64,000 bases of DNA from Solibacillus silvestris. Lineage in GTDB: Bacteria > Bacillota > Bacilli > Bacillales_A > Planococcaceae. The stretch lies in contig CP014609.1 in NCBI GenBank assembly GCA_001586195.1, positions 2,818,501 to 2,882,500 on the forward strand, given 5' to 3'. The translations under genes and the position numbers were made by a program. The notes under the pieces were generated by a model that was given only the letters and a program-made list of their open reading frames with translations, was not told the DNA's origin and searched no databases. Shown piece after piece: positions 4,514 to 25,832 of the stretch. Numbering within the stretch: position 1 is the first letter of the stretch; every line of letters begins with the position of its first letter.

Positions 4514-4700
4514 ATTAGAATAGTTGGAGGGGTTATTAGAAAATGTCAGCGGTATATTAGAACATCGGAGTGCTTTATTTGAAGATGTCAGATGGTTTTT
4601 AGAACAACTGAGTGATATATTAGAAAATCGCAATTATATTAGAACATTTTTAGGTTTATTAGACCATTGCCGGTCGTTATTAGAACTAAATACATGCCTC
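4514..4700 (+). repeat. Nine-unit ATTAGAA phased element, copy A
   Basis: Anchors of the form ATTAGAA begin at 4514, 4535, 4556, 4577 (ATTTGAA), 4598 (TTTAGAA), 4619, 4638, 4658 (ATTAGAC) and 4679. The steps are 21, 21, 21, 21, 21, 19, 20 and 21 bases, the same series as in copies B and C. About 11-14 variable, GC-richer bases separate the anchors. A further ATTTGAA lies at 4708. The element fills the gap between the exonuclease terminator and the next plus-strand gene. Read in the frame of 4524 it gives an open frame of L-L-E heptads that ends at 4766, overlapping the next ATG. Confidence 0.9.
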
Positions 4701-4762
4701 CTGTTTTATTTGAAACTATTTCCAGCCAATCGACGTAGAATAGAAGAATTGGAGGTGTACGG

Positions 4763-5563
4763 ATGAGAAACTTATCTTCATATATGATGCTTACCGGGAT
4801 ATTGATCACTGCGATATGCGGGAACTGGATCATCCTTAATTATGATGGGGTCGTGATTTATCCGAAAGCTTCTTATCTTACTTTCGGAATCGGGTTAGTA
4901 CTGGTAGGATGCACTTTTGTAATGAATCAAATCTTCAGTTACCGGGAACAGGAAAAAACACATACAAAAGATAAACGGCATGCTCTAAACGAATGGCTTA
5001 CTGCTAATCAGCCAGTTAATAAATGGTTGTTTGGACTCGTTATTCTCCCACTTGTGATCGCACCGTTTTATAGCTGGACGCTGTTTTTTACGATGCTGGA
5101 ATGGTATTTATTTTCAGGGCTTGTAATAGCCGGTATTATTTACATGCTGAAAGGTGACAGAGTAGAAGAAAATACAGGCTGGGAGTATAAAGGGAAGACA
5201 AAAAAGATGCTTGATCTGATCGATTACCGCAAACATCCGTTTAATATTTCGCTTATTATCTACATCCTGGTCATTGGAAGTTTTGTGTTAAGTAAGAGAT
5301 TGGATATTCCGCTCTATATGGAAACAGGAGGCAACTCGCGCTACGTTACTTCTTTGCCAACAATTTCATTTTTAATGTCTTCCTTAATGGTCGTGAGTAC
5401 GTTTATTTATATTATCAGTCATGGAGATTTCTTTGGTTTTCGTAAAGCCGAGTTAAGTTATGAAAGAGTCATGTTCGTCCACTTTGCAGAAATTATTGTA
5501 TGTGGTGCCACCCTGTTTATTTTAATTTTCACATTAATCAATGCGTTGTATGTGTATTTTTAG
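4763..5563 (+). CDS. Polytopic membrane protein of unknown function
   Basis: This 266-residue protein has about seven hydrophobic segments: residues 8-25, 38-56, 88-105, 108-127, 160-178, 200-217 and 240-262. A charged loop (YREQEKTHTKDKRH) lies near residues 60-75 and a second one near 130-150. No family motif was recognised. The ATG is preceded by GGAGG with good spacing. It lies alone on the plus strand downstream of repeat copy A, so its promoter must lie in or near that element or transcription must pass through it. Confidence 0.75.
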   Translation: MRNLSSYMMLTGILITAICGNWIILNYDGVVIYPKASYLTFGIGLVLVGCTFVMNQIFSYREQEKTHTKDKRHALNEWLTANQPVNKWLFGLVILPLVIAPFYSWTLFFTMLEWYLFSGLVIAGIIYMLKGDRVEENTGWEYKGKTKKMLDLIDYRKHPFNISLIIYILVIGSFVLSKRLDIPLYMETGGNSRYVTSLPTISFLMSSLMVVSTFIYIISHGDFFGFRKAELSYERVMFVHFAEIIVCGATLFILIFTLINALYVYF

Positions 5564-5642
5564 ATGGATGGCTACTATCGACAATAGGCACACACCGGTA
5601 AATTATTGCATACTGTAACTACAATAAAAAAGAGGTGAACTA

Positions 5643-6215
5643 TTGAATCCGAATCAAGATTATACATCAGTGCAACCCCAGTTTACATTCGACCTTAATA
5701 AAAACCCGTTGTTCGTAAAAGACCAGCAAAATTTTATTAATGTAATGGGCGTCAACCAGTTAAATACACTGGATAATATATCGCTGCTTGATATTTATTT
5801 GAGTGCCAATAATGTCATTGAACCGCACTACCATCAAAATGCGGCGGAGCTTGTTTATTGTATTGCGGGAAGTGCGATTGTTTCGATTTTGAATCCATTT
5901 ACGAAACAGCTGATGCATTTTCCGATTACCCCCGGCCAGGTGGCGAACGTTCCTCAAGGGTGGTGGCATTACGAAGTCGCCACGCAAAACAACACGCATC
6001 TGCTCGCCATTTTCAACGCACCGACACCTGAAGTCATTTTAGGTTCCGACCTCCTCAAGCTGACACCAGCAAATATTATGGCCCACACATATGGGATGAA
6101 CGAAAATTTATGGACGCAGGCAGTTGCACCGGTACGTCCGAATACGTTCATCGGTCCACCAAACCCATGGCAGCAAGTCCAGCCTGGCAACTATGGCGGC
6201 GGGTATGAGCAGTAG
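5643..6215 (+). CDS. Cupin-domain protein with Gly/Pro/Tyr-rich tail
   Basis: This 190-residue protein has a single cupin barrel. The first metal motif reads PHYHQNAAELVYCIAGSA (about residues 59-76) and the second PGQVANVPQGWWHYEV (about 99-114). The tail PWQQVQPGNYGGGYEQ is low-complexity and resembles spore-coat-associated cupins. The start is TTG at 5643 with AAGAGGTGAA correctly placed; no better start exists. The function may be structural or an oxalate-decarboxylase-like activity. A second cupin with a Tyr/Pro-rich head lies at 19663-20487. Confidence 0.75.
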   Translation: MNPNQDYTSVQPQFTFDLNKNPLFVKDQQNFINVMGVNQLNTLDNISLLDIYLSANNVIEPHYHQNAAELVYCIAGSAIVSILNPFTKQLMHFPITPGQVANVPQGWWHYEVATQNNTHLLAIFNAPTPEVILGSDLLKLTPANIMAHTYGMNENLWTQAVAPVRPNTFIGPPNPWQQVQPGNYGGGYEQ

Positions 6216-6339
6216 TTTTTCTCGATCAAAGGAATCATATTTCAAAAATGCATTTGCATAATGAAACGGCCGTGTTATGATAACTGTGAAATTAACCTAA
6301 TATTGGAAGCAGATAATCTGCTTATAATTGAATATGAAA

Positions 6340-6425
6340 ACTACTAGGGGCGCCTGTTTGGCTGAGAAGAACCCTTTGCACCTGATCTAGGTAATACTAG
6401 CGTAGGAAAGTAGTGTCGACCCCTG
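6340..6425 (+). ncRNA. TPP riboswitch (THI element)
   Basis: The aptamer shows the conserved THI core: GGCTGAGA, ACCCTTTGCACCTGATCTAG, and AATACTAGCGTAGGAAAG, closed by pairing of CTAGGGGCG with the CGACCCCT end. It senses thiamine pyrophosphate. A terminator follows before thiW, so high TPP should stop transcription. Confidence 0.95.
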
Positions 6426-6452
6426 TTTTTAGTATTTGTTTTAGGCTGCGAT

Positions 6453-6484
6453 ACCACTTTCTTTAGTTGAAAGTGGTTTTTTTG
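6453..6484 (+). terminator. Riboswitch-linked terminator before thiW
   Basis: ACCACTTTC (6453-6461) and GAAAGTGGT (6469-6477) form a nine-base stem followed by seven T. It lies between the TPP aptamer and the thiW start and is the likely expression platform. Confidence 0.85.
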
Positions 6485-6515
6485 TTGCAAAAATTTATTG
6501 TAAAGGATGGTAGAG

Positions 6516-7022
6516 ATGAATAAAACGAGGAAGCTTACGTATTCAGCGATTATCGCTGCACTTACAACGATACTCAGCAGTTTTGTGTACATCCCTTTAG
6601 GTTTTGCCAAAATATTTCCGATTCAGCATTTTGCCAATGTCGTATCGGCGGTGTTGCTCGGTCCTTGGTATGCGGTATTACAGGCATTCCTTACATCGAC
6701 ATTGAGAAACTTAATGGGGACAGGCAGTATATTTGCTTATCCAGGGAGTATGATTGGTGCCTTTTTGGCTGCATTTCTGTTTGCTAAAACGAAGAAGTTA
6801 GCGTTTGCGGCAGTAGGTGAAGTAATCGGGACCGGGTTGCTCGGTGCGATGGCTACTTACCCGATCGCCATTTTATTTTTAGGTCAGGAAGCGGCGCTAT
6901 TCGGTTTTGTCCCGGCATTTATGATGAGTTCTTTTGCGGGGGCGCTTTTAGGCTATGGCTTGCTGAAGATTATGGTGAGAAACCGGGCGTTTGGCGGGAT
7001 GCTTTATCAGAATGCCGGGTGA
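6516..7022 (+). CDS. thiW: ThiW, thiamine-precursor ECF S component
   Basis: ThiW is a small membrane substrate-binding (S) subunit of an energy-coupling-factor transporter, thought to import the thiazole precursor of thiamine. The 168 residues contain about five hydrophobic helices and typical features of the family, including the PLGFAKIFPIQHFANVVSAVLLGPWYA stretch and the GTGSIFAYPGSMIGAFLA segment. The ATG at 6516 is chosen because AAAGGA lies eight bases upstream; an ATG nine bases earlier overlaps the ribosome site. The TPP riboswitch upstream supports the assignment. No ECF ATPase is encoded nearby; the shared EcfAT module would be elsewhere. Confidence 0.9.
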   Translation: MNKTRKLTYSAIIAALTTILSSFVYIPLGFAKIFPIQHFANVVSAVLLGPWYAVLQAFLTSTLRNLMGTGSIFAYPGSMIGAFLAAFLFAKTKKLAFAAVGEVIGTGLLGAMATYPIAILFLGQEAALFGFVPAFMMSSFAGALLGYGLLKIMVRNRAFGGMLYQNAG

Positions 7023-7035
7023 ATGGAAGGTTTTT

Positions 7036-7120
7036 ATTAGAAGTTTTTGTGTCGTTATTAGAACTTCTTGGCGGGATATTAGAACTTTTGCGCATGATAT
7101 TAGAACAGTTTGGGATTTTG
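7036..7120 (+). repeat. ATTAGAA phased element, copy B, upstream four-unit block
   Basis: Anchors begin at 7036, 7057, 7078 and 7099, each 21 bases apart, starting 14 bases past the thiW stop. An 82-base step with no anchor then leads to the nine-unit block at 7181. Copy C has the same arrangement (four units, then an 81-base step). Confidence 0.85.
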
Positions 7121-7180
7121 GTAAAACGGGCTTATTCCTAAATAAGGTGCGCGTCCATTTTGCGTTAGCCTGCCGTTTTT

Positions 7181-7360
7181 ATTAGAAGATTTGTGATGGA
7201 TATTAGAAGATTGCAGGGGGTTATTAGAACTTCTGTGAACGATATTTGAACATATTAAAGACTTATTAGCACAATGTACAATTATATTAGAAAATCTCAC
7301 TTTTATTAGAAGATTTTAAAATATATTAGAACAACTCAGACCTTTATTAGAAAATGAAAC
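7181..7360 (+). repeat. Nine-unit ATTAGAA phased element, copy B
   Basis: Anchors begin at 7181, 7202, 7223, 7244 (ATTTGAA), 7265 (ATTAGCA), 7286, 7305, 7325 and 7346. The steps are 21, 21, 21, 21, 21, 19, 20 and 21 bases. It lies between convergent genes, in thiW orientation. The seventh unit begins ATTAGAAGATTTT and the sixth ATTAGAAAATCTCAC, closely matching the same units in copy C. Confidence 0.92.
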
Positions 7361-7396
7361 GCCGGGTATCCATTCAGACACCCGGCACATTTTATT
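7361..7396. terminator. Hairpin between thiW side and the VOC gene
   Basis: GCCGGGT (7361-7367) pairs with ACCCGGC (7380-7386), followed by a T-rich run in the plus direction. It lies between convergent genes and may serve both. Confidence 0.6.
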
Positions 7397-7790
7397 AAGG
7401 TAAATTAATCTGCCATGACACGCCGTAACGGTCATTTACCCAGCCGAACTTCTTACTGAAACCGTAATTACCGATTGGCATTAGCGGATGCCCGCCTTCA
7501 AGCAATTTTTCATAAAGATGGTCGGTTTCTTCTTCCGTATCACACGTTATAAAAATAGAGAATGACGGTGTGAAGTCAAATTCATGCTTAATATTACTGT
7601 CAATGCACATAAATTCCTGACCTTTTATCGAAAAAGTGGCTTGCATGACTTTTCCTTCGTCTCCGCCTTCATTTGCCCCGTAGCGGACAATGCTTGTAAT
7701 TTCCGCATCATCGATAAGTGATGTATAGAAGTTCATCGCTTCTTCTGCAACGCCGCCTTGAAACATTAAAAATGGTTTTGCGCTTTTCAT
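7395..7790 (-). CDS. VOC-fold (PhnB/glyoxalase-like) protein
   Basis: This 131-residue protein belongs to the PhnB-like branch of the vicinal-oxygen-chelate superfamily. It shows the N-terminal KPFLMFQGGVAEEAMNFYTSLI repeat, the central GQEFMCIDSN strand and the C-terminal FGWVNDRYGVSWQINLP ending typical of the family. These proteins are mostly of unknown activity (glyoxalase- or methyltransferase-like annotations). The ATG at 7790 has AGAGGA eight bases upstream; the longer frame adds an implausible 15-residue head. It stands alone between repeat copy B and a two-unit repeat fragment. Confidence 0.85.
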   Translation of the reverse strand: MKSAKPFLMFQGGVAEEAMNFYTSLIDDAEITSIVRYGANEGGDEGKVMQATFSIKGQEFMCIDSNIKHEFDFTPSFSIFITCDTEEETDHLYEKLLEGGHPLMPIGNYGFSKKFGWVNDRYGVSWQINLP

Positions 7791-7888
7791 CGTTATCTTC
7801 CTCTTTCCCACTAAAATTAAGTTCATTTGCACCACTTCAATGTAGCTTATTTTATCCTTTTACGCGAACTTTTCTCCCTACAGTTTAA

Positions 7889-7916
7889 AAGGCATCTCCA
7901 ACTCGTAGATGCCTGT
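7889..7916. terminator. Small hairpin in the gap before luxS terminator
   Basis: GGCATCT (7891-7897) pairs with AGATGCC (7908-7914), with A-rich sequence on one side and GTTTAA on the other. It may be a weak terminator; its direction is uncertain. Confidence 0.35.
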
Positions 7917-7996
7917 TTAATATTTAAATTCCGCAATAATTAGCTGTAATTCTCTGTGCCAACTCCGTTTAAACTATTGCTGATGATGACAGATCT

Positions 7997-8032
7997 ATTA
8001 GAACATCACAGCACTTTATTAGAAATTCCTTG
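7997..8032 (+). repeat. Two-unit ATTAGAA fragment, copy F
   Basis: Two anchors at 7997 and 8018, 21 bases apart, lie in the gap between the VOC gene and luxS. The first unit resembles the third unit of copy A. It looks like a remnant or a minimal copy of the nine-unit element. Confidence 0.6.
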
Positions 8033-8033
8033 C

Positions 8034-8074
8034 CGAAAAACAAAACACCGGGTGGTCATAATCTCCATCCGGTG
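8034..8074 (-). terminator. Terminator of the tcyABC-luxS transcript
   Basis: CACCGGATGG and CCACCCGGTG (minus strand, 8046-8074) form a stem with one mismatch, followed by TTTTG and a further T run. It lies ten bases past the luxS stop. Confidence 0.75.
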
Positions 8075-8083
8075 ATTCATCAA

Positions 8084-8554
8084 TTATTCCCCAAAAACAA
8101 TATGCCACTCATCGCGGCCAGCTAAAAACTCCTCAGCTAATGCCTTTGCACCTTCTAAGCTATGGCTTGCTGCCCAGCCGCATTGTACTTCATTACATGC
8201 GGGTACCGATTCCGCCTTCAATACATCCTTCAGCGTATTTTCAATAATCGTTAATACGCCGTCATAGTCATTGTAGTTCAGTAATGCCAAGTAAAAGCCT
8301 GTTTGACAGCCCATTGGCGATAAATCTACGACGTCTTCACTATGATTACGGATACGGTCAGCCATTAAATGTTCTAATGAGTGTAGTGACGGCATTTCCA
8401 TATGCGCTTTGTTCGGCTGTTTGAATCGGATATCGTACTTTGTTACGACGTCGCCTTTTGCTCCTGTTTTCGTACCGGCAAGTCGTACGTATGGTGCTAC
8501 TACTTTCGTATGGTCTAAATCAAAGCTCTCTACATTTGTTTTCTCTGTTGTCAT
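8084..8554 (-). CDS. luxS: S-ribosylhomocysteine lyase LuxS
   Basis: LuxS cleaves S-ribosylhomocysteine to homocysteine and the autoinducer-2 precursor DPD, recycling sulfur from the methyl cycle. All key residues are visible: the metal-binding HSLEH (H58, H62), C83 in MGCQTGFY (catalytic) and C125 in [14 protein letters not shown] (metal). The length, 156 residues, is standard. AGGGGGA lies six bases before the ATG. The gap to the upstream ABC ATPase gene is only 16 bases in the same direction, so luxS is probably co-transcribed with the cystine-type transporter. Confidence 0.97.
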
Positions 8555-8570
8555 GTTAAATCCCCCTAGA

Positions 8571-9311
8571 TTAGATAAACTGCATCGATTTTATAAATTG
8601 TTGAATCCGTTCATTATTGTTTGCTGTAAAGAAGTTTTCGGTTACGCCGTCATAGCCGATTTCACCGTTTTCCAGAAATAGAATCCGGTCTGCCACTTCG
8701 CGTGCGAAATTCAGGTTATGCGTCACGATAATCATCGACTTGCCTTCCTCCGCCAAATCCTTCAGCACCTTCAGCACTTCTCCTTCTAGTTCTGGGTCCA
8801 GTGCACTTGTCGGCTCATCGAACAGTAAAAACTGCGGCTCCATTGCCAATGCTCTTGCGATGGCGACACGCTGCTGCTGCCCGCCGGATAATTGCGAAGG
8901 ATACTGGTCTGTTTTATGACTCAGGCCAACCTTCTCCAATAATTGCTGTGCCTTTTGTCTTGCAACCTCTTTGTCTTTCTTTAAAACGGTAACTGGCCCT
9001 TCCATCACATTTTCAAGCACCTTCATATGCGGGAAAAGATTGAAGCTTTGGAATACCATCGCCGTATTTTGACGAATTGAAAGTAAGTTTTTCTGAGAAA
9101 ACGGCTTGTTCAGTTCAATTGTCTGGTTCCCGACAGTCAGAACGCCTTTTTCAGGTCGCTCCAGCAGATTGATACAGCGCAGCAGCGTTGATTTTCCTGA
9201 ACCGGATGGACCTAAAATAACCGTTGTTTCGCCTTCATGAAATGTTAAATTAATATTTTTCAATGCCTCGTTCTCGCCAAAGAACTTCGACATCTGCTGA
9301 AATTGTACGAT
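8571..9311 (-). CDS. tcyC: Polar amino acid (cystine-type) ABC transporter ATPase, ATC start proposed
   Basis: The ATPase shows Walker [10 protein letters not shown] (residues 34-42 from the proposed start), the Q-loop [12 protein letters not shown], signature [15 protein letters not shown], Walker [13 protein letters not shown] and the TH switch. The first ATG (9293) leaves out residues that the family normally has before KFFG and lies 25 bases from the ribosome site. The strong GAAGGGGGGA (complement of 9318-9327) is instead seven bases before an ATC (9309-9311), giving about 246 residues that start [12 protein letters not shown]. The adjacent ATT at 9312-9314 is an alternative. It forms an operon with the permease and binding protein upstream and with luxS. 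Confidence 0.85.
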
Positions 9312-9348
9312 AATAAGTCCCCCCTTCTAGCGCTTCACGATACCCGAC

Positions 9349-10008
9349 TTATATATATTTTGATGCGTATTTTTCCAGTCGGCCTTGAATGACCATCAAC
9401 ACGCTAATAAAGATTAAATATATAACTGCACAAAGTGAATAAATCATAAGCGGCTCATACGTCCTTGCTGTGATTTGCTGCCCGACCATGAATAGATCCG
9501 CAAGTGTAATACTGGCAACTAAAGATGTGCCTTTTACCATATCGATAAAATCATTGGCTACTGGCGGTAATGAAATGCGAACGGTTTGCGGTGCAATGAC
9601 ACGTCGCATCATCTGCCAATACGTCATACCGAGTGATTCTGCTGCCTCCCATTGCCCTTTTGGAATGGCCAAAATTGAAGCTCGGATCGATTCAGAAGCA
9701 TATGCACCCGTATTCAGAGAGAATGTAATAATTGCCGCTGTCCACGCATCAAGGGTAATCCCCAGTTTCGGTAGACCGAAGAACACTATAAATAATTGCA
9801 CTAATAATGGTGTTCCGCGAAACACCCATACGTAAGCACCGAATATCCATCGTAAAACCCGGTAATTCGAGATTCTCGCTAATGCCGTCACAACTGCAAT
9901 GACTAATGCAATGGCAAAAGCAATGAGCGATAGCGGAATGGTAACAAGAAGTCCTGCTTTTAAAATCGGCCAGATCGAGCTAAGTAAAATATCCATTTCT
10001 CTACTCAT
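9349..10008 (-). CDS. tcyB: Polar amino acid (cystine-type) ABC transporter permease
   Basis: This 219-residue inner-membrane permease of the HisM family has about five hydrophobic helices and the EAA loop GQWEAAESLGMTYWQMMRRVIAPQ (about residues 118-141), which contacts the ATPase. The segment VFRGTPLLVQLF is typical of polar amino acid permeases. The ATG follows AAAGGAG by nine bases. It lies between the binding-protein gene (65 bases upstream) and the ATPase gene (37 bases downstream). Cystine is inferred from similarity to TcyABC and from the adjoining luxS; another polar amino acid is possible. Confidence 0.88.
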   Translation of the reverse strand: MSREMDILLSSIWPILKAGLLVTIPLSLIAFAIALVIAVVTALARISNYRVLRWIFGAYVWVFRGTPLLVQLFIVFFGLPKLGITLDAWTAAIITFSLNTGAYASESIRASILAIPKGQWEAAESLGMTYWQMMRRVIAPQTVRISLPPVANDFIDMVKGTSLVASITLADLFMVGQQITARTYEPLMIYSLCAVIYLIFISVLMVIQGRLEKYASKYI

Positions 10009-10073
10009 CCACTAGCACTCCTTTCTGTAGTGTAAGCTATGTAAAAAAGGAGGCCGTCGAAACGACCTTCCCA

Positions 10074-10874: not shown

Positions 10875-10920
10875 TCTAATTGCCTCCATTATTAATTCCT
10901 AGTTTTTTTATAAGCTTTAT

Positions 10921-10948: not shown

Positions 10949-11019
10949 CTTTATTTTCTGAACAATAATTAAATTTAGAACTTTTAATTAATACGGACGG
11001 GAAAATGGATTAAATACAT

Positions 11020-11820: not shown

Positions 11821-11948
11821 CTGATTTCCTCCTTTATAAATTGCTTAGTAAAAGTGTAACTGAAATCGTTTGGAATTTCGTGCTTGGGGTTGTCCTTTTT
11901 GGAATAGGTGTGGAGTTTTTCAGGTTGCTCGGATTTGGTGCGGGATCT

Positions 11949-12030
11949 ATTAGAACGTTTGGGGCGGATATTAGAAGAGTTGCGCAGGATATTAGACATC
12001 GGCGGGATTTATTAGAAAATCTAGGATAGG
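11949..12030 (+). repeat. ATTAGAA phased element, copy C, upstream four-unit block
   Basis: Anchors begin at 11949, 11970, 11991 (ATTAGAC) and 12011, with steps of 21, 21 and 20. The next anchor comes 81 bases later at 12092. The block and its left flank (from about 11916) are similar to the flank and first units of the nine-unit block 142 bases downstream. Confidence 0.85.
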
Positions 12031-12091
12031 TGTGCGCTTTTTTGGGTGGGAGCGTTGTTTTTCAGGTTGCTTGGAAACGGTGCGGGATTTT

Positions 12092-12272
12092 ATTAGAAAG
12101 GTTTGGGGATATATTAGAAGAGTTACGCGGGATATTAGAACATCGGTTAGGTTTATTTGAATAGTTGGAGCACTTATTAGCAAAAATATGATTTATATTA
12201 GAACATCTCACTTTTATTAGAAGATTTTTTGGGATATTAGAACAGTGTAGAGCTTTATTAGAACATCCTCAC
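12092..12272 (+). repeat. Nine-unit ATTAGAA phased element, copy C
   Basis: Anchors begin at 12092, 12113, 12134, 12155 (ATTTGAA), 12176 (ATTAGCA), 12197, 12216, 12236 and 12257, with steps 21, 21, 21, 21, 21, 19, 20 and 21. It lies between divergent genes and reads toward the HEAT-repeat gene, ending about 35 bases before its -35 region. Confidence 0.92.
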
Positions 12273-15608: not shown

Positions 15609-15838
15609 TTAGAATCCCTCCTTAACTTTGTTATAAAGCTTTAATACCCAATTCTAATATTTTTACGCATTTCGACGGAAAATTACTATATTTTTTTAAT
15701 AGAAAAGTAGCTGCTCTTCTTTCACCAGTCAAAAAGTTTTACTGTTTTGGAATGATTTTATTCGGTGGCAAGTATATCTTTAGAAACAATGTAAAAAATA
15801 GCAGAGATTAGAAAACTAAATGGTTGGGGTGAAACATA

Positions 15839-16219
15839 TTGGGTATTTTTGACGGTTTGATGGGGAATGCCAGTGAGTTGAAGGCAGAAGACGTTCAAAA
15901 GGAAATGGAAGAAATCATCACGAGTAATGAAGTGGTCAAACATGCTTATAAAGTCATAAGAGATACGTTTATCTTTACAAACAAACGCTTGATTCTCGTT
16001 GATAAGCAGGGGATGACTGGTAAGAAAACTGAGTATTTGTCTATTCCCTACAAAAGCATTACAAATTTCTCGATTGAAACGGCCGGAACGTTCGATTTGG
16101 ATGCAGAATTAAAAATCTGGATTTCCGGTAACAGCATTCCTATTCAGAAGAAGTTTAACAAAGCTACAAATATTTATGCGGTTCAACGGGTTTTAGCAGA
16201 AAATATTTTGTCGTCTTGA
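15839..16219 (+). CDS. Bacterial PH-domain protein
   Basis: These 126 residues form a single pleckstrin-homology-like domain, with RDTFIFTNKRLILVDKQGMTGKKTEYLSIPYKSITNFSIETAG as the core strands. This is the bPH_1 family; members are small cytosolic proteins of unknown partner. The start is TTG at 15839 with GGGGTGA upstream. A strong terminator follows, then repeat copy D. Confidence 0.82.
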   Translation: MGIFDGLMGNASELKAEDVQKEMEEIITSNEVVKHAYKVIRDTFIFTNKRLILVDKQGMTGKKTEYLSIPYKSITNFSIETAGTFDLDAELKIWISGNSIPIQKKFNKATNIYAVQRVLAENILSS

Positions 16220-16236
16220 TTATTGGGAAAGACGCA

Positions 16237-16293
16237 AAACGAACGATTTTGTAGGCTCCTTTCGTGGAGAATCAGAATCGTTCGTTTTTTTTT
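16237..16293 (+). terminator. Terminator of the PH-domain gene
   Basis: AAACGAACGATT (16237-16248) and AATCGTTCGTTT (16276-16287) pair perfectly over 12 bases. The 27-base loop is itself partly paired, and a T run follows. Confidence 0.85.
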
Positions 16294-16341
16294 GTTTCTT
16301 TTATCATTTGTGATTTATGATATGGTAGAAGCAAGAAGGAT

Positions 16342-16522
16342 ATTAGAAGATTTTCCGTTATATTAGAATATTTCCGTGCCTTATTAGAACTTTCGCAGCA
16401 CATATTTGAACATTGGGCACACTTATTAGAAGTTCGTACATATATATTAGAAAATCATACTTTTATTAGAACATTTTTTAGTTTATTAGAACATTGAGCG
16501 GTGATATTAGAACTTCTTCCAA
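16342..16522 (+). repeat. Nine-unit ATTAGAA phased element, copy D
   Basis: Anchors begin at 16342, 16362, 16383, 16404 (ATTTGAA), 16425, 16446, 16465, 16485 and 16506, with steps 20, 21, 21, 21, 21, 19, 20 and 21. It is very similar to copy E, which lies on the other strand 9 kb away, especially over units 5, 6, 8 and 9. It ends about 30 bases before the start of the CC-motif gene, whose promoter would have to lie inside it. Confidence 0.93.
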
Positions 16523-16553
16523 CCACACGCTCTACGAAAGCGAGGAACCTTTC

Positions 16554-16835
16554 ATGCAAATCGAACTCGATACAAATACGAAAAAATGGATGCAGTCAAA
16601 AGGCAAGCCGGTTTCCGTAAAAACCATTTCGGTGAACGCCTGCTGCGCCCCGCCTGTCCAGGAATTGATGACCCACTTAGGTAAGCCGAAAGATGCGCAT
16701 AATTATAACGAAATCAAAATCGATAACCTGTCCGTTTTCGTTGAGAAGCATCTATCACATAATGAAAAAATGACGCTGAAGCTTACAGGCATCGGGATTT
16801 TCAAAATGATTTCGGCAAAGTTAGGGAGCAATTAA
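16554..16835 (+). CDS. CC/Se-motif family small protein
   Basis: The 93 residues start MQIELDTNTKKWMQSKGKPVSVKT and contain the adjacent cysteines NACCAPPVQELMTHLGKP at about residues 30-47, the mark of the CC/Se (seleno)protein family, in which the second position can be selenocysteine in other species. The function is unknown; a redox or metal role is plausible. The ATG 16554 has AGCGAGGA upstream; the 20-residue longer frame would be translated from repeat copy D and is rejected. Its stop overlaps by four bases the end of the convergent reductase gene. Confidence 0.75.
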   Translation: MQIELDTNTKKWMQSKGKPVSVKTISVNACCAPPVQELMTHLGKPKDAHNYNEIKIDNLSVFVEKHLSHNEKMTLKLTGIGIFKMISAKLGSN

Positions 16836-17452
16836 TAAGCGATCCCCACACGCGTTTTTTTATAATCGCTGCTTTGCAGTAAGCTGTAGGCAAAATCCGC
16901 TGTATCCGGAACTGAAATTTGGCTGCCGTCTTCCGGTAGAAAATTGCGTTCTGTACGGTATTTCCCGAGCTTTTCTCCATCTGGCAAATAGGTAGGGCAG
17001 ACAATTGTCCAATCAAGGCCGGACTGTTGTAGCATGTCATACACTTTATGGTGTTCTTCTGCAGCTCGGGTTAACTTTCTTTTTGATTCGCTTGACTGAT
17101 AGCGCAGCAGTTCCGGGCTGACCCGACTTTGCAGGATGCCGGCAGTACCGATTGTAATGATTCGTTTAATGCCTTCCTTTTTCATTGCATCGATAACTAG
17201 CGGCATACTTTCGGTTAAAGTCGTTCCCCCATCTGTATTCAGTGCACTTAACACTACATCCACCCCATGCATCGCCCGCTCAATATCTTCTTTCTTCAGC
17301 ACATTCCCCTGAATTACTGTTAAATTTTCATGATGATTTTCAATTTTGTCCGGTGTCCGAACGAGAGCTGTCACATGATGGCCATCCTGAAGCGCATTCA
17401 TTACTAAATGACTTCCAACTCGACCTGTTCCACCTAAAATTAATAAATTCAT
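16832..17452 (-). CDS. NAD(P)-binding oxidoreductase (NmrA/atypical SDR)
   Basis: The 206 residues begin with the Rossmann motif LILGGTGRVGSHLV (G-x-x-G-x-x-G, residues 5-14) and continue with NVLKKEDIERAMHGVDVVLSAL, which marks an atypical SDR of the NAD(P)H-binding, YwnB-like group. The classical YxxxK pair is not clear, so it may be a redox sensor or a flavin/quinone-type reductase. It is transcribed toward the CC-motif gene, with a four-base overlap of the two 3' ends. Confidence 0.82.
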   Translation of the reverse strand: MNLLILGGTGRVGSHLVMNALQDGHHVTALVRTPDKIENHHENLTVIQGNVLKKEDIERAMHGVDVVLSALNTDGGTTLTESMPLVIDAMKKEGIKRIITIGTAGILQSRVSPELLRYQSSESKRKLTRAAEEHHKVYDMLQQSGLDWTIVCPTYLPDGEKLGKYRTERNFLPEDGSQISVPDTADFAYSLLQSSDYKKTRVGIAY

Positions 17453-19255: not shown

Positions 19256-19570
19256 TTATCCTTCAATATAATTCGCTTCCAAGCCGCGCGCTACTTCCTT
19301 CGTTTTATCCATAACTGCCCGATGTGCCGCCGCAACATATAACTCGCTTTCGTAAAAACGGAATGGTATTTCCTGGCCTTCATATTGCCACATGAAGAAG
19401 TGGCCGTTAATTTTCATATTGACACCGTCTTGTGTGACACTATAGAAATCTCGGTATACGAAATCCGATTTTGTCGCAAAGAAGTTTTGGCATTCCTGTA
19501 AGCTGAGCGTAGGATTCCCTTCCTGATCATGACGTGTAATTTTATATCGTGGATTCATTCGTGTATTCAT
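19256..19570 (-). CDS. Conserved hypothetical protein
   Basis: This 104-residue soluble protein is not recognised. It is rich in aromatic and charged residues (YRDFYSVTQDGVNMKINGHFFMWQYEGQEIPFRFYESELYVAA) with an alternating strand pattern in the middle and a C-terminal helix. There is no signal peptide or membrane segment. AAAGGAG lies seven bases before the ATG, which supports translation. Confidence 0.65.
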   Translation of the reverse strand: MNTRMNPRYKITRHDQEGNPTLSLQECQNFFATKSDFVYRDFYSVTQDGVNMKINGHFFMWQYEGQEIPFRFYESELYVAAAHRAVMDKTKEVARGLEANYIEG

Positions 19571-19662
19571 TAAAAATCTCCTTTAATAACCATCTATCGT
19601 TTCATTATAGTTGGTTATGTTAGTTAAGGCAAAAGAGATCATTCAGGTTCCTTAACGCTTCA

Positions 19663-20487: not shown

Positions 20488-20573
20488 TTATTTCATTCCC
20501 TTCACAGAATCATCGTATTATCATATGCGACTGTTTTAAAAACGCCTATTATAGAATATAGTTACCTGTCCCT

Positions 20574-20789
20574 TTATTTGCTTGTATCATAATTTATGTT
20601 CATTTTAAGTTCGTTTAAATCTTTATCAATTTTGGATATTACTCTATGTAACTCTTCATTTTCCGAAGGGGTAAATGTTTCGCCGCTGCGTTTCCTTAAA
20701 ACTACTGCTTGATTTATGAGTCTTAAACATGTTTTAATCAGTGCCAAATCCTTTTCGATCGCCTCTTTGCTTATGTCTATTTCGCCCAT
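20574..20789 (-). CDS. Small helical hypothetical protein
   Basis: This 71-residue, strongly helical and charged protein (MGEIDISKEAIEKDLALIK at the start) has no cysteine or membrane segment. It has a very good ribosome site (GAAGGGAGTG, six bases before ATG). It lies 84 bases upstream of the cupin gene in the same direction and could be its partner. No family recognised. Confidence 0.6.
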   Translation of the reverse strand: MGEIDISKEAIEKDLALIKTCLRLINQAVVLRKRSGETFTPSENEELHRVISKIDKDLNELKMNINYDTSK

Positions 20790-20872
20790 TTATAACACTC
20801 CCTTCCATAAATTATATAACAGGAAGCACAAAAATACTCCCCTTTGCTTAAAGGAGAGTATTTTTTCATATT

Positions 20873-22048
20873 TTATTCCCAAATAGCGGATGCCCACTCA
20901 GGATGATCGATAAATGGATTACGGTTATGCTGGTAATCGGTATAAATAATTTCATTTCTTGTACGTTCAAAATTGTCGACCGGGTCTTGTTTATGCCATT
21001 GGAGCAGTACCGAAAGCTTCCCGTGATAAGGAGCTGTGCCGTTGTTGACCTGATTATTTAATTCCAAATCAAGTTCCCCGCTGTCTCCTTCATAGCGAAC
21101 CGCCATATAAAACAGCATACGGGCAACATCACCTTTTACGCTGTCTCTTGGCTCCCATGAATCAGAATCATAGTAGTTGCCGGATGCTTCTGAATGCTCG
21201 TTCCCGCCATTGTCAAAGTCAAGATTGCTTCGCGTACCGTTGACACTGACATCGGTTGGACGCAAATGATGCAAGTCTGTTCCTGCACCCATCGATGTGC
21301 CAAAACCACCGTGCGATTTTGCCCAAACATGCTCACGGTTCCAGTCATTCACGTTCCCGCCGTTTGTAAATTTGCTTTGGGAGCGGCCTGTATAAAGAAG
21401 AATGACGTTATTCGAATTGTTGGGATCTTCATCTGTTTCGCGAAGAGCTGTCCATACATTGGAATACGGAATTTCGGTATGGTCATCTATAATATTATGC
21501 AAAGCCGATTTTAAAGCTGCACCGGTTTTCCCTATAGCTGCATCATAATAGGCACCCGTTGAAGGATTTGGTGTCGGAGTCGGCTCAGGATCGGCAGGAC
21601 TTCCCCCCACTACTTCAAAAGCTGTACTATTTTTTAATCCAGGATGAGAAAAGTATGCTGACAAGGCGCCCGTGATTTTCACGCTTTTCCCCATTAATGA
21701 AGGATTTGATTTTAATCCGTAAGAAGAGCGGAAAGAAGTTGGAATCTGTACATAGATCATGTTAGCGATATTCGTTTCGTTCGCATTGTCCGCTATTGCC
21801 AATGCATAGTCATTCGGAAAACTGCCTGTAAGGACGGTCGTTGTTGATGTAGGTTGTCCCACCACATAACCTTGAACTGTTTTTGTGGAGTTGTTTTGAT
21901 TGCTGATTGCCTGAGATACGGAGTAAGGTGTCGACCACGACCCGTCCCCAGCTGCTGCATTTGTAACAGTAGATTGAAGAGGCTGAATTAAAATGAAAAC
22001 AATAAGTACCCAAGAAAACAGTAGACGTACATTTCGATTTTTAACCAT
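20873..22048 (-). CDS. Secreted endonuclease (endonuclease I/BsnA type) with OB-fold head
   Basis: The 391 residues have a signal peptide (hydrophobic VRLLFSWVLIVFILIQPLQ, cleaved near ATNAAAG). An OB-like domain (about 30-150, KTVQGYVVGQPTST to KSVKITGALSAYF) and a Pro-rich linker (DPEPTPTPNPST) follow. The C-terminal His-Me-finger nuclease domain carries NDWNREHVWAKSHGG with the catalytic His, DLHHLRPTD and the Asn/Glu region NSLDFD-type. It probably degrades extracellular DNA or RNA for nutrients. ATG 22048 is chosen because AGGAGG precedes it by six bases. Confidence 0.88.
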   Translation of the reverse strand: MVKNRNVRLLFSWVLIVFILIQPLQSTVTNAAAGDGSWSTPYSVSQAISNQNNSTKTVQGYVVGQPTSTTTVLTGSFPNDYALAIADNANETNIANMIYVQIPTSFRSSYGLKSNPSLMGKSVKITGALSAYFSHPGLKNSTAFEVVGGSPADPEPTPTPNPSTGAYYDAAIGKTGAALKSALHNIIDDHTEIPYSNVWTALRETDEDPNNSNNVILLYTGRSQSKFTNGGNVNDWNREHVWAKSHGGFGTSMGAGTDLHHLRPTDVSVNGTRSNLDFDNGGNEHSEASGNYYDSDSWEPRDSVKGDVARMLFYMAVRYEGDSGELDLELNNQVNNGTAPYHGKLSVLLQWHKQDPVDNFERTRNEIIYTDYQHNRNPFIDHPEWASAIWE

Positions 22049-22276
22049 TTTTCTCCTCCTAGTTATGCAATTTAAGTTCAATCAGCAAACGCCAACCAAC
22101 TCCTCTTTATATTATCATAAAATTATTAATATTCCGTTAATTTTTGAAGAAAAATCGTTAAATTATTTAATTACTTGTTAAGAATGTGATGGAACTAGTT
22201 TAGGCACGTCAATAAAGCATAAAAAAACTAGAAAATGTAATAATCAACTACTCCACTTTCCAGCGATTAGAAATTT

Positions 22277-22849
22277 TCACTTTAGCGACTGCCGAAACTT
22301 CACAATTTCCACGAGGCGGTTGTTCATCATATCTACAGAGTCTTCAAAGTTGTTCAAATACCATTGAATGAGTAATCCGATGATGGCATTTGCATTATAG
22401 GCATGCAGATATTTATTTAACTGATGTTCATGCTTTAAATAATCGGTCTCATTCATCAGCTTGCAGATTTCATCAAAAAGCATGTAATAATATTTCATCG
22501 ATACATCTTCAGATAATACAATTTTGTAAAAGTCCTCGTATTTTTTTACGTGGTCGAAAATCTTTACTGAATTTGGGTTTAAGTTGAGACCGTTGACGGT
22601 TAATTGCAGTCCTTCTTTAAATGGCTCATCATAAGAAATATGTAAATCCATCATGATTTCCTCGAATAATTCCTCCAGCACATCGTCAACACTTTGATAA
22701 TGGAAATAAAAAGTACCCCGGTTAATCGTTGCTTCTTTACAAAGCTCGGTAATTTTAATTTGAGGCAATGATTTTTTCTTCAATAATAACAGTAATGCTT
22801 TATGTATTGTTTTTTTCGTTTTGATAACACGAAGATCGTTTTTATTCAT
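22277..22849 (-). CDS. TetR/AcrR-family regulator
   Basis: The 190 residues contain a helix-turn-helix near the N-terminus (LPQIKITELCKEATINRGTFYFHYQSVDDVLEELF, about residues 28-62), with a ligand domain after it. It is divergent from the SDR gene at 22997 and the 147-base gap holds TGTACA-type inverted repeats, so it is probably the SDR repressor and self-regulated. AAAGGAGG precedes its ATG. Confidence 0.87.
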   Translation of the reverse strand: MNKNDLRVIKTKKTIHKALLLLLKKKSLPQIKITELCKEATINRGTFYFHYQSVDDVLEELFEEIMMDLHISYDEPFKEGLQLTVNGLNLNPNSVKIFDHVKKYEDFYKIVLSEDVSMKYYYMLFDEICKLMNETDYLKHEHQLNKYLHAYNANAIIGLLIQWYLNNFEDSVDMMNNRLVEIVKFRQSLK

Positions 22850-22883
22850 GATGACCTCCTTTACTGTACAATTCTATCAAATA

Positions 22884-22902
22884 TGTTGGATATCGTACAA
22901 CA
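22884..22902. promoter_or_regulatory. Inverted repeat, candidate TetR operator (tetR side)
   Basis: TGTTG and CAACA arms flank nine bases that include GTACAA. Together with a nearby CTGTACA at 22864 it lies in the region expected for the promoter of the TetR gene. It resembles the better site at 22953-22970. Confidence 0.4.
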
Positions 22903-22919
22903 TGAAGGTTTTTTGCTGA

Positions 22920-22970
22920 TTGAAAACGCTTTATTTTGTGTAATATACTTTTATTGTACAAATGTGCAAT
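22920..22970 (+). promoter_or_regulatory. SDR promoter with overlapping TetR operator
   Basis: A -35 TTGAAA (22920-22925) and -10 TATACT (22944-22949) are 18 bases apart. Directly behind them, 22953-22970 forms the near-perfect palindrome ATTGTACA-AA-TGTGCAAT with one mismatch. A repressor bound there would cover the start of transcription. Confidence 0.6.
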
Positions 22971-22996
22971 ATGATATTTCAGGAGGATGAATTCAA

Positions 22997-23755
22997 ATGA
23001 AATTACAAGGCAAAGTAGCAATCGTAACTGGTGCAGCTTCTGGTATGGGGAAAGCAATCGCTGAACTTTATGCAAAAGAAGGTGCAAAAGTTGTCGTTTC
23101 AGATTATAACGGTGAAGGTGCGAAAACGGTAGCGGATGCAATCGTGGCAGCTGGCGGACAAGCAATCGCCAATCAGGCTAACGTAGCAGAATTAACTGAC
23201 ATCGAGCGTATGTTTGAAGAAACAAAAGCAGCATACGGTCAATTAGATATTTTAGTAAACAACGCTGGAATCATGGACGGCATGGAGCCAGTCGGTGAAA
23301 TTTCAGATGAGAAGTGGGATCGTCTTTTCTCAGTCAATACTATGGGTGTGATGCGTGCAATGCGTATCGCAACAAACATCTTCCTTGAACAAGGTCATGG
23401 TGTTATCGTGAACAACATTTCAGCTGGCGGCTTACGCGGTGCTCGCGCTGGTGCAGCTTATACTGCTTCTAAGCACGCAGTAGCTGGTTTAACGAAAAAC
23501 ACAGGTTATATGTACGCTAATTCTGGTATCCGTTGCAACGGAATTGCACCAGGTGGCGTAATGACAAATATTCAAGCTTCGATGACAGGCATTTCCGAGT
23601 TTGGTGCTGCTCGTCAGCAAACAGGTCTTGGCACAATGCCGCGCGCTGGTCAACCGGAGGAAATCGCTAAGCTAGCATTATTCCTAGGTTCTGATGATTC
23701 AAGCTTCATCAACGGACAAGTCATTGCTGCTGATGCTGGTTGGACTGCATACTAA
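22997..23755 (+). CDS. Short-chain dehydrogenase/reductase under TetR control
   Basis: This 252-residue classical SDR has TGAASGMG (residues 11-18), acidic D37 (NAD preference), NNAG (88-91), the catalytic Ser in NNISAGG and YTASKHA (Tyr-Lys). It resembles 3-oxoacyl or glucose-type dehydrogenases, but the substrate is unknown. AGGAGGATG lies upstream of ATG. The codon choice (many GCA, GGT, CGT, few rare codons) suggests high expression. It has a strong terminator and a divergent TetR gene. Confidence 0.87.
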   Translation: MKLQGKVAIVTGAASGMGKAIAELYAKEGAKVVVSDYNGEGAKTVADAIVAAGGQAIANQANVAELTDIERMFEETKAAYGQLDILVNNAGIMDGMEPVGEISDEKWDRLFSVNTMGVMRAMRIATNIFLEQGHGVIVNNISAGGLRGARAGAAYTASKHAVAGLTKNTGYMYANSGIRCNGIAPGGVMTNIQASMTGISEFGAARQQTGLGTMPRAGQPEEIAKLALFLGSDDSSFINGQVIAADAGWTAY

Positions 23756-23780
23756 TTTTCATGTAGCTGATAGATTAAAT

Positions 23781-23825
23781 AGAGAGACAAAATCTTAGAT
23801 CACTCGGATTTTGTCTCTCTTTTTC
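23781..23825 (+). terminator. Terminator of the TetR-controlled SDR
   Basis: AGAGAGACAAAATC and GATTTTGTCTCTCT pair perfectly over 14 bases with a 12-base loop, followed by T residues. The facing gene is convergent, so it may serve both. Confidence 0.9.
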
Positions 23826-23830
23826 TTGCT

Positions 23831-24319
23831 TTAAACAGACGCCGCTGCATCCTGATCAGCTTTCACACAATCGATTGCAATAACAATAGCAATGATGATT
23901 TTTTCCATGTCATCCTTAAGTACTTCTACCTTGTAGCTATCCCCCCATGTAAACCATTCCTTGCTTACTTGCCCGATGACTTCCCCATGCTGTTTTACTG
24001 CAAATTGCATATCCCACCAGTTCCCCTCAATTTCCACCCCAACTGCATTCACCGAATAGCGTGCCTTGAAAAGCGAGAGCTCCTTCTGGATTGTCAATAC
24101 CTCTTGTCCTTCGACTTCCACATAAAATTTTGGCAGCAAACTGAGCACCTTTTTCGTAATTAGCGCGACTTCATTTCTTGCTGTATCCATAATCGAGTAC
24201 GTTTTCGGTATTTGCATAAAACTTCCTTCTACAAGATATACATCATTTTCGTGCTGATCCTTTACCGTAAATTTTCCGCTAAGACTGAAAACCTTTTGTT
24301 TAATAAATAGCTGTTTCAT
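23831..24319 (-). CDS. LURP-one-related protein (YxjI type)
   Basis: This 162-residue protein has the twisted beta-barrel fold seen in tubby/LURP-one proteins. Typical are the start KQLFIKQKVFSLSGKFTVKDQHENDVYLVEGS, the middle LLPKFYVEV and the closing WFTWGDSYKVEVLKD. Members have unknown function; membrane-lipid binding has been suggested for the fold. AAGGAGG precedes the ATG. Single gene. Confidence 0.8.
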   Translation of the reverse strand: MKQLFIKQKVFSLSGKFTVKDQHENDVYLVEGSFMQIPKTYSIMDTARNEVALITKKVLSLLPKFYVEVEGQEVLTIQKELSLFKARYSVNAVGVEIEGNWWDMQFAVKQHGEVIGQVSKEWFTWGDSYKVEVLKDDMEKIIIAIVIAIDCVKADQDAAASV

Positions 24320-24404
24320 TCAAAATACCTCCTTTAGTTAATACCTTTACGATTAAATGAGAAAAAAAGATTCAATCGCTAAAATGTTGATGCGAATAAT
24401 AAAA

Positions 24405-24446
24405 ATGAACCTTCCATCTCAAACTTGACTGGAAGGTTCATTTTTT
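24405..24446 (-). terminator. Terminator of msrA
   Basis: TGAACCTTCCA and TGGAAGGTTCA pair perfectly over 11 bases, with T runs on both sides, so the hairpin can work in both directions. In the minus direction it closes msrA. Confidence 0.8.
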
Positions 24447-24916
24447 CATTTATATTTCGTTAATAACGCTTCAGGAATATGGCAGTAATCATCCGGACAT
24501 CTTGTTAACCGGTCCTGATGCTCTTCCGCACTTCTCACATAGTTAGTGAGCGGCAGCACTTCCACAACTATCCGGTCAGCATCGGGTCTCGCTGTAATAA
24601 ATGCTTTTGCCTCAATCAAGTGTGCTTCGTTTTTGCTATAGACACCCGTTCGGTATTTCTCGCCTACATCCTCGCCTTGTTTGTTCACACTGTACGGATC
24701 GATGATTTCAAAAAAGTAATCCATTAATTCCCGCATCGATACAACACTTGGATCAAACTCGGTTTTGACACACTCGGCATACCCATCATAATCGCCGTCC
24801 AGAGTGGTTGTCGTTCCATTCGCTCTTCCCGCTTCAGTAAATGTCACACCCGGCAATGTTTTCATAAATGCCTGTACACCCCATAAACAGCCGCCTGCAA
24901 AATATACAGTTTCCAT
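24446..24916 (-). CDS. msrA: Peptide methionine sulfoxide reductase MsrA
   Basis: MsrA reduces methionine S-sulfoxide in proteins. The catalytic motif reads GGCLWG (residues 8-13; the usual form is GCFWG, so Phe is replaced by Leu). Further family features are DPSVVSMRELMDYFFEIIDPYSVNKQGEDVGEKYRTGVY and a C-terminal CPDDYCHIPEALL with resolving cysteines. ATG 24916 has AGGGGAG eight bases upstream; an earlier GTG overlaps the ribosome site. The 156 residues are slightly short but complete. Single gene. Confidence 0.85.
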   Translation of the reverse strand: METVYFAGGCLWGVQAFMKTLPGVTFTEAGRANGTTTTLDGDYDGYAECVKTEFDPSVVSMRELMDYFFEIIDPYSVNKQGEDVGEKYRTGVYSKNEAHLIEAKAFITARPDADRIVVEVLPLTNYVRSAEEHQDRLTRCPDDYCHIPEALLTKYK

Positions 24917-25073
24917 CTCGGTCACTCCCCTATGTAAACTAGTCCTTTGTGCTATGTATGTCGATCTTCATTCTCTCTACTATTAGTATACCATTTCAGG
25001 CTATTTATTTTTAGACTACTCTTTTAAAATTTCCGTACTATACTGATAATACAAAACGAAAGGGGTGTGTCCT

Positions 25074-25490
25074 ATGAAAGATCAAACAGATGTCCTCGAT
25101 CGGGGTCCTTTTTTTCATGGTACGAAAGCAGAACTAAATATCGGGGATTTATTAGAGCCTCTTCACTTATCCAATTATCAGGATAAGAAATCGAACTATA
25201 TTTACTTTACCGCAACATTGGAAGCTGCAAAATGGGGTGCCGAATTGGCAAGATCAACAGCAGAAGAGCGAATTTATATTGTTGAACCATTAGGTGAATT
25301 CGAAAATGACCCGAACGTTACGGACAAAAGATTCCCAGGAAACCCAACACGCTCATATCGTTCGAAATCTCCTTTGAAAATAGTCGCCGAATTAGGTTGT
25401 TGGGAGCGCCATTCCGATGAAGTCATCAATCATATGCTGGCATCTTTAAAGAAGTTAAGCGATGAAGGGAAAAATGTTATATACGATTAA
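25074..25490 (+). CDS. arr: Rifamycin ADP-ribosyltransferase Arr
   Basis: Arr transfers ADP-ribose from NAD to a rifamycin hydroxyl and inactivates the antibiotic. The 138 residues carry all family blocks: GPFFHGTKAELNIGDLL (the H-G-T NAD site), SNYIYFTATLEAAKWGAELA (Y-x-T), RIYIVEPLGEFENDPNVTDKRFPGNPTRSYRS and the closing ELGCWERH. ATG 25074 has AAGGGG eight bases upstream. It is a lone chromosomal gene without mobile-element signs. Resistance is likely from family knowledge but not proven. Confidence 0.92.
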   Translation: MKDQTDVLDRGPFFHGTKAELNIGDLLEPLHLSNYQDKKSNYIYFTATLEAAKWGAELARSTAEERIYIVEPLGEFENDPNVTDKRFPGNPTRSYRSKSPLKIVAELGCWERHSDEVINHMLASLKKLSDEGKNVIYD

Positions 25491-25651
25491 TTTAAGCGCT
25501 ATAAATATTAAATGCCCGGTACACAATATGATTTGTATACCGGGTACCGATTTACCTTACTGTCAGCCGCGCCATATTCTCTTCATCGACAGTCAGTTTC
25601 AAATCTTCATCCTTCATATTTTCAGGATTTCTCGCTTTCGTTAGAGCGCAT

Positions 25652-25832
25652 GAAGAAGTTCTAATATCACTGCTCAATGTTCTAATATATTAAAATTTGT
25701 TCTAATAAAAGTATGATTTTCTAATATATATGTACGATCTTCTAATAAGTCTGTCCGATGTTCAAATATGTGTAGTGGAAGTTCTAATAAAGCACACGGA
25801 TGTTCTAAAATAACGAAAAATCTTCTAATATT
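25652..25832 (-). repeat. Nine-unit ATTAGAA phased element, copy E (minus strand)
   Basis: On the minus strand anchors begin at 25829, 25809 (TTTAGAA), 25788, 25767 (ATTTGAA), 25746, 25725, 25706, 25686 and 25665, with steps 20, 21, 21, 21, 21, 19, 20 and 21, identical to copy D. The first anchor begins four bases past the stop codon of the NERD gene. No separate terminator is visible for that gene, so its transcript may run into the element. Confidence 0.93.

Follow-up and report, generated by a model that had tools for sequence, protein, structure and literature searches.

Modular, helically spaced repeat arrays in the intergenic regions of Solibacillus, probable binding sites for a sequence-specific protein

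Arrays in the window

The window analyzed here is a 64,000-nucleotide stretch of Solibacillus silvestris DNA (contig CP014609.1, positions 2,818,501 to 2,882,500). Its intergenic regions contain five arrays of nine short, directly repeated anchors of the ATTAGAA type and two arrays of four such anchors (Table 1). The five nine-anchor arrays were described in an earlier note on this DNA, with first anchors at positions 4514, 7181, 12092, 16342, and 25829 (the last on the minus strand) and spans of 165 or 164 bases; positions, steps, and spans were all borne out. The two four-anchor arrays, located upstream of the nine-anchor arrays at 7181 and 12092, are missing from that note. The score used for nine-anchor arrays rewards nine anchors at the expected steps and mildly favors those steps; a freer chaining of anchors likewise yields steps of 19 and 20 bp. 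The score is 110 to 115 for the five window arrays, whereas 20 order-1 Markov versions generated from the window contain nothing above zero. The copies at 25829 and 16342 are 88% identical.

Table 1. Arrays in the window and the gene product encoded next to the last of them. Linkers are measured from the last anchor start of one array to the first anchor start of the next.
Feature	Position	Strand	Steps (bp)	Remarks
Nine-anchor array	4513..4685	+	21,21,21,21,21,19,20,21	
Four-anchor array	7035..7105	+	21,21,21	82 bp linker to next array
Nine-anchor array	7180..7352	+	21,21,21,21,21,19,20,21	
Four-anchor array	11948..12017	+	21,21,20	81 bp linker to next array
Nine-anchor array	12091..12263	+	21,21,21,21,21,19,20,21	
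Nine-anchor array	16341..16512	+	20,21,21,21,21,19,20,21	6 other Solibacillus genomes carry an array at the matching locus
Nine-anchor array	25659..25830	-	20,21,21,21,21,19,20,21	
NERD + topoisomerase-type zinc ribbon protein	25833-26705	-		stop codon ends 2 bases before the array

The description of the anchors as ATTAGAA holds for the type but not for the exact word, as TTTAGAA, ATTAGAC, and ATTAGCA are also present. Similarly, the fourth anchor, said to be always ATTTGAA, has this sequence in the five window copies but in only 23 of the 50 arrays scored genome-wide, and is thus not a fixed feature. The bases between the anchors do vary over most of the filler, but less freely at the positions next to the anchors: the pooled site spans ~13 bp, KWTATTAGAAVAT, and contains a G that is ~100% invariant in 48 arrays of this genome.

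Array architecture

The S. silvestris genome (G000), a single contig of 3,991,226 bases, contains ~50 nine-anchor arrays, a lower bound obtained from the 150 of 3,520 first-look candidates that were scored. The counts given for this genome refer to the 50 arrays with scores above 65; one of the 51 candidates above 55 (at 3008267) is a false composite. The set for this genome also contained one stray 115-base piece, which cannot accommodate nine anchors; the five window arrays entered it via other loci. The steps follow the pattern (20|21),21,21,21,21,19,20,(20|21). The sixth step is 19 bp in 49 of the 50 arrays, as well as in 100 of 102 arrays at other Solibacillus loci, and the seventh is 20 bp in 44 of 50. 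The variable steps are the first (21 bp in 34 arrays, 20 bp in 16) and the last (20 bp in 26, 21 bp in 23, and 19 bp in one). Anchors 7 to 9 lie off the 21-bp lattice by -2.4, -3.3, and -3.9 bp, respectively (48 nine-anchor arrays).

Arrays come mainly in two sizes. In G000, G101, and G126, with duplicates removed, there are 68 arrays of 4 anchors and 122 of 9; the minor sizes are 3 (15 arrays), 5 (13), 6 (4), 7 (2), 10 (4), 11 (2), 12 (1), and 16 (1). The 19-bp break is found in 120 of the 122 nine-anchor arrays and in all 8 arrays with more than nine anchors, but in none of the 68 four-anchor arrays, 1 of 13 five-anchor arrays, and 1 of 4 six-anchor arrays of the same genomes. In S. silvestris, a short array, where present, lies upstream of the nine-anchor array, and the locus signatures are 9 (23 loci), 4-9 (16), 3-9 (4), 3-4-9 (3), and 5-9 (1), with single loci of 6, 7, 10, and 11; series such as 9-4-9 are present in G101 and G126. 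Simpler arrays with 21-bp steps only are found in G108 (4 and 6 anchors) and in G114 and G120 (6 and 7 anchors in each). A six-anchor array of this kind corresponds to sites 1 to 6 of the nine-anchor array, which might therefore be a 6+3 composition.

Genomic and phyletic distribution

Pattern searches show that the anchors are abundant in the S. silvestris genome. With up to 2 mismatches allowed, TATTAGAA-N12-TATTAGAA has 68+39 matches, compared to 5+10 for the reversed control, and three anchors at 21-bp steps have 132+71 matches, compared to 0 for the control. A sequence-only model of anchors 4 to 9, built on 19 sequences, yields 127 matches with E<=0.01, 48 of them with E<1e-10. The density of arrays along G000 appears uneven by inspection: only 1 of the 50 lies within ~1.84 to 2.68 Mb (0.84 Mb), and seven lie within 2.765 to 2.845 Mb. 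Array strands are mixed on both chromosome arms, with no replication polarity.

The phyletic distribution is narrow. In a sample of the order (261 genomes), a search for the triple of anchors at steps 19 and 20 (the 19/20 triple), allowing 3 mismatches at most, gives 18 to 58 matches in each of 8 of the 16 Solibacillus genomes. Outside the genus, 10 of 245 genomes are matched, once each except for 9 matches in G260, most of which lie inside a different tandem repeat. In a phylum-wide sample of 398 genomes, a strong signal comes from S. silvestris alone, and 3 of the 397 others have a single 2-mismatch match. A scan of sequence collections with the 19/20 triple retrieved 18 stretches, 13 from Solibacillus faecavium and S. 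merdavium and 5 from unrelated taxa; the nine-anchor array is absent at all 5 of the latter loci. Thus, nine-anchor arrays are found in 8 of the 16 Solibacillus genomes and simpler arrays in 3 more (G108, G114, and G120), which makes 11 array-bearing species; the other 5 are array free.

Conservation of sites and spacing

Orthologous nine-anchor arrays of G000 and G126 were paired through their flanking DNA, and 35 of 36 listed pairs were counted; the G101 and G126 loci had been brought in via array matches. In these surviving arrays, whose anchors were located by motif score, with a bias toward conserved anchors, differences are seen at 107 of 2,520 sites in the 8-bp anchors (4.2%), at 291 of 1,575 in the five positions near them (18.5%), and at 667 of 1,998 in the outer filler (33.4%). 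Anchors are thus ~8 times more conserved than the outer filler, or 10 times after correction for multiple hits. In two pairs (E3008001 and E3011163), a crosswise comparison gives a better filler match than the flank-based pairing used.

Filler length is altered in only 15 of the 280 intervals. Blind alignment gives 39 gap events per 6,041 aligned bases in the arrays versus 111 per 2,384 in the next 75 bp downstream, so that indels are ~7-fold rarer in the arrays than in the adjoining DNA (0.65 versus 4.66 per 100 aligned bases). The longer flanks of orthologous arrays are 85 to 95% identical for most pairs. The earlier note had proposed selection on position and, where the 19- and 20-bp steps follow each other, a defined break of phase. 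Both proposals are supported by the constancy of the sixth step across the genome and the genus and by the excess conservation of anchors over filler, so that the refuting outcome named in the note did not arise. The arrays are distinct from CRISPR, which consists of identical repeats of more than 20 bp: here the conserved word is ~13 bp, and the rest of the filler has accumulated substitutions between orthologues.

Linkers between neighboring arrays

Linkers between neighboring same-strand arrays were measured with 24 to 159 bp allowed and no phase constraint; for G101 and G126, the set covers 30 and 50 loci, respectively, which contain part of the arrays in these genomes. Of the 109 linkers, 107 fall into seven classes near 28, 38, 50, 60, 71, 81, and 91 bp, one helical turn apart: 28-29 bp (2 linkers), 38-39 (5), 49-50 (7), 58-61 (8), 69-72 (21), 80-83 (63), and 91 (1). 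The remaining two are 105 and 132 bp long. Kinship was controlled for by grouping the loci by their flanking DNA and keeping a single value for each locus and class (30 groups, 51 values), which gives a periodicity of R=0.874 at 10.5 bp (n=51). Without the 80-83 class, R is 0.852 (n=29) and is matched by 0 of 3,000 random sets, even with the period scanned from 8 to 14 bp. At 21 bp, R is as low as 0.209 (0.380 without the modal class), indicating that linker length is quantized by the helical turn rather than by gain or loss of repeat units. Clustering of linkers by their own sequence was discarded because its thresholds were within noise (1 and 2 clusters); its R of 0.72 was based on 10 class values, for 9 of which 334 of 3,000 random sets did equally well.

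Orthologous loci display such whole-turn changes directly. The linker before the nine-anchor array is 72 bp in G000 versus 82 bp in G101 and G126 at one locus, 71 bp in G000 and G101 versus 81 bp in G126 at another, and 82 bp in G000 and G126 versus 71 bp in G062 at a third. The quantization of linkers suggests that selection acts on the helical phase of duplex DNA, and it further backs the idea, raised in the earlier note, that a bound protein might follow one face of the helix. The mean linker phase is 7.7 bp, so that linkers consistently fall ~2.8 bp short of whole turns. This shift suggests that the internal 19/20 break and the linkers impose similar rotations.

AT-rich anchors at two-turn steps, together with the linker phasing, would also be expected if the arrays merely produced intrinsic curvature with no specific protein involved. 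Yet, judged from the sequence of the sites, an 8-mer that is asymmetric, carries a G with ~100% invariance, and offers a single AT-rich block per two turns appears overspecific for bending, which makes this explanation highly improbable.

Inheritance in place

Two loci, both retrieved with DNA that included long flanks, illustrate the age of the arrays. In the spacer between rpmE and tdk (gene names from our reading of the sequence), the nine-anchor array occupies one and the same position, behind a terminator-like hairpin, in 8 of the 16 Solibacillus genomes; a four-anchor array is found there in G108, and no array was read in the other 7. At the window locus 16342, the array is common to 7 species, and the 20-bp first step is kept in 7 of 7, with the G132 array partly decayed (score 90); no array is found in G138, where only the downstream part was matched, or in six other species, and two genomes gave no match. 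More generally, an array-matching locus with one or both flanks in common was counted in G126 for 37 of the 50 S. silvestris arrays and in G101 for 3 others. The presence of arrays at the same places in several species indicates that they are old and, judging from these alignments, inherited at fixed intergenic sites. Several nine-anchor arrays in a row are found at some G101 and G126 loci, so copy number is still changing.

A separate observation concerns the rpmE-tdk spacer of G048 (L200), where a second, different inserted stretch, ~250 bp long, lies downstream of the nine-anchor array; its ends are similar to CTGGGACATAA and TTTTGTCCCA.

Dispersed intergenic arrays limited to one genus could be functionless remnants of a mobile or amplified repeat, whether MITE-like or a decaying tandem, that inherited their spacing from a founder copy. 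The 88% identity of two window copies, the consecutive nine-anchor arrays in G101 and G126, and the existence of decayed copies (G132 at the 16342 locus and G126 at L187, the latter with a score of 41) all fit this explanation. It is nevertheless very unlikely, given the 33% divergence of the outer filler against 4% for the anchors, the depletion of indels, the shifts of linker length by whole turns, and the occupation of the same places in several species, which makes any spread old. In addition, the 16342 copy has no inverted repeat at its ends: of the two inverted pairs within 15800-17000, neither is located at the array ends, as would be the case in a MITE. For an empty-site comparison aimed at a MITE target-site duplication at rpmE-tdk, the array-free species are too diverged.

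Interspersed repeats of the REP/BIME type are also found between genes, mostly at 3' ends, in dozens of copies, and are limited to particular lineages. The arrays share all these features. However, they have no palindromic unit or hairpin over anchors 4 to 9 (0 predicted consensus pairs in 19 sequences), and they conserve spacing, with variable filler and turn-quantized linkers.

Gene context

Relative to the array, the directions of the neighboring genes (open reading frames [ORFs] of at least 70 amino acids) are >> for 19 arrays, >< for 15, << for 13, and <> for 3. Accordingly, 47 of the 50 arrays have a gene 3' end on one side or both, and the placement rule seems to be between genes, but not between divergent promoters. 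The 10 ORFs scanned next to the window arrays have no apparent function in common, nor do the 10 scanned at G108 and G114 arrays, which suggest no shared DNA-binding gene.

LytTR operators, the sites of HdrR-like regulators, are described as asymmetric 9-bp direct repeats, mostly with 12-bp gaps, which places their starts 21 bp, or two helical turns, apart (PMC6193735). The arrays share this direct-repeat layout and might thus be operators for a regulator of the adjacent genes, LytTR-like or iteron-like. In contrast to the arrays, which mostly have 4 or 9 sites of another motif, LytTR sites are far shorter, being pairs located beside the -35 site. The arrays mostly lie at gene 3' ends and, judged from ORFs, only rarely between divergent genes; the window neighbors scanned have no apparent function in common, and no LytTR protein tracks the arrays. 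An operator role is therefore quite unlikely.

The array after the rpmE terminator-like hairpin could be contained in read-through transcripts, which brings up an RNA-level element, such as a transcribed spacer, a small RNA, or a terminator-associated RNA. This explanation is highly improbable: consensus pairing is not predicted over anchors 4 to 9, Rfam has no family at the window arrays (in the window, the gathering score is reached by TPP and cobalamin riboswitches alone), the array strand is mixed relative to the neighbors, and 10.5-bp quantization has no known meaning in single-stranded RNA. A coding reading, with 21 bp as 7 codons, was rejected: ATTTGAA stops one frame, and the other frames are also stopped in the two window regions inspected by eye.

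Similarity to replication and segregation sites

Iterons of plasmids and phages are several direct repeats bound by Rep, ~21 bp apart and on one face of the helix. The arrays likewise consist of direct repeats at about two helical turns, and handcuffing between them is conceivable. They differ in occupying ~50 chromosomal intergenic loci instead of a replicon origin or a copy-control region, and in Solibacillus they keep ~13 of the 21 bp, with a fixed 19/20 break and 4/9 modules. A blastn search with one array found no match in 72,556 plasmid records or in phage records, and the 19/20 triple has no match in viral contigs; no search was aimed at rep genes.

DnaA-box clusters and parS-like sites are dispersed multisite regions for one protein, with helical phasing of asymmetric boxes. 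This likeness extends to the arrays, which are dispersed over the chromosome and helically phased. However, the motif TATTAGAA resembles neither consensus, and the arrays have fixed 4/9 modules and, among the genomes searched, are confined to some members of a single genus.

Helically spaced direct repeats that are dispersed over the chromosome, with consecutive arrays at some loci, might still titrate or handcuff a replication initiator or cell-cycle factor in an iteron-like manner, acting through their number and not their position. We consider this unlikely in view of the missing plasmid match of the array searched, the conservation of ~13 bp instead of the whole unit, and the dissimilarity to the DnaA box; besides, titration as such does not need phased linkers.

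Proposed mechanism

The RNA, coding, mobile-remnant, and pure-curvature explanations each conflict with at least one of four properties of the arrays: turn-quantized linkers, a strongly asymmetric site whose G is invariant, steps of two turns, and filler that tolerates substitutions but not changes of length. Together, these properties would be expected of a multisubunit protein assembled on one face of duplex DNA. Based on sequence comparisons, the arrays are probably duplex-DNA binding sites for one putative sequence-specific Solibacillus protein.

Several observations weigh against binding by such a protein. A search of candidates (LytTR, the NERD gene, and array-adjacent ORFs) yielded no binding protein. 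LytTR, the closest known mode of binding, was rejected as the binder, as each of the 16 Solibacillus genomes has 4 to 6 matches, array bearing or array free alike, with no match confined to the array-bearing genomes (table inspected by eye). The NERD gene next to the 25829 copy was rejected as a partner because its close orthologues (71 to 100% identity) are found in just 5 of the 16 genomes, all 5 among the 8 nine-array species; the NERD protein encoded beside a G114 array is distant (25 of 117 residues identical). The placement of only 3 of 50 arrays between divergent genes gives no sign of neighbor regulation. One linker of the 109 (105 bp) is out of phase, and the orthologous pair dropped from the comparison (E93332/L187 in G126) is a decayed array with a score of 41 versus the threshold of 45, so that the divergence figures describe surviving arrays.

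For the putative binding protein, we infer that a single protein reads the sites and that its assembly bridges arrays. Each ~13-bp site would take one protein unit, and the 21-bp step would set successive units on one face, which might allow head-to-tail assembly in one direction. The 19- and 20-bp steps would then rotate the last three sites of the nine-anchor array by 2 to 4 bp, and separate arrays would be connected by linkers whose length is a number of whole turns with ~7.7 bp added each time; a similar fixed rotational offset might thus be built in twice. As to its role, our guess is a fixed intergenic nucleoprotein structure that serves chromosome organization, insulation, or factor titration. 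A more elaborate version, tentative and rather doubtful as a whole, is a genus-specific chromosome-organizing system in which one directionally polymerizing protein occupies the dispersed arrays, the site count (4, 6, or 9) and rotational register act as a structural code, and arrays bridged over whole-turn linkers form nodes at ~50 conserved places.

As far as Rfam (for the window), Creative Commons (CC)-licensed PubMed Central (PMC) papers, and the sequence collections go, this element family has not been described before; phased sites on one face are already known as a principle. No description of the element was found in the CC-licensed PMC literature, and we know of no other chromosome-wide family of modular, phase-locked arrays. 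The whole-turn linker changes at many loci in several species amount to a helical-phasing experiment run by evolution. They offer strong evidence, obtained from sequence alone, for face-specific multisubunit assembly on bacterial chromosomes, and none of the families found accounts for the arrays. With the sites known, there is a direct route to fishing out the putative protein, and the Solibacillus species with simple arrays or none provide natural controls for the effect of the system.

Other features of the window

A TPP riboswitch (6336-6425, plus strand) is located just upstream of a thiW-like ORF (6507-7022), and a cobalamin riboswitch is found at 48688-48865 on the minus strand. The ORF at 25065-25490 (plus strand) matches rifampin ADP-ribosyl transferase (Arr-ms, PF12120). 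Finally, a 64-bp AT-rich direct repeat, unlike the arrays, is found at 35436-35499 and 37885-37948, with 78% identity between the two copies.

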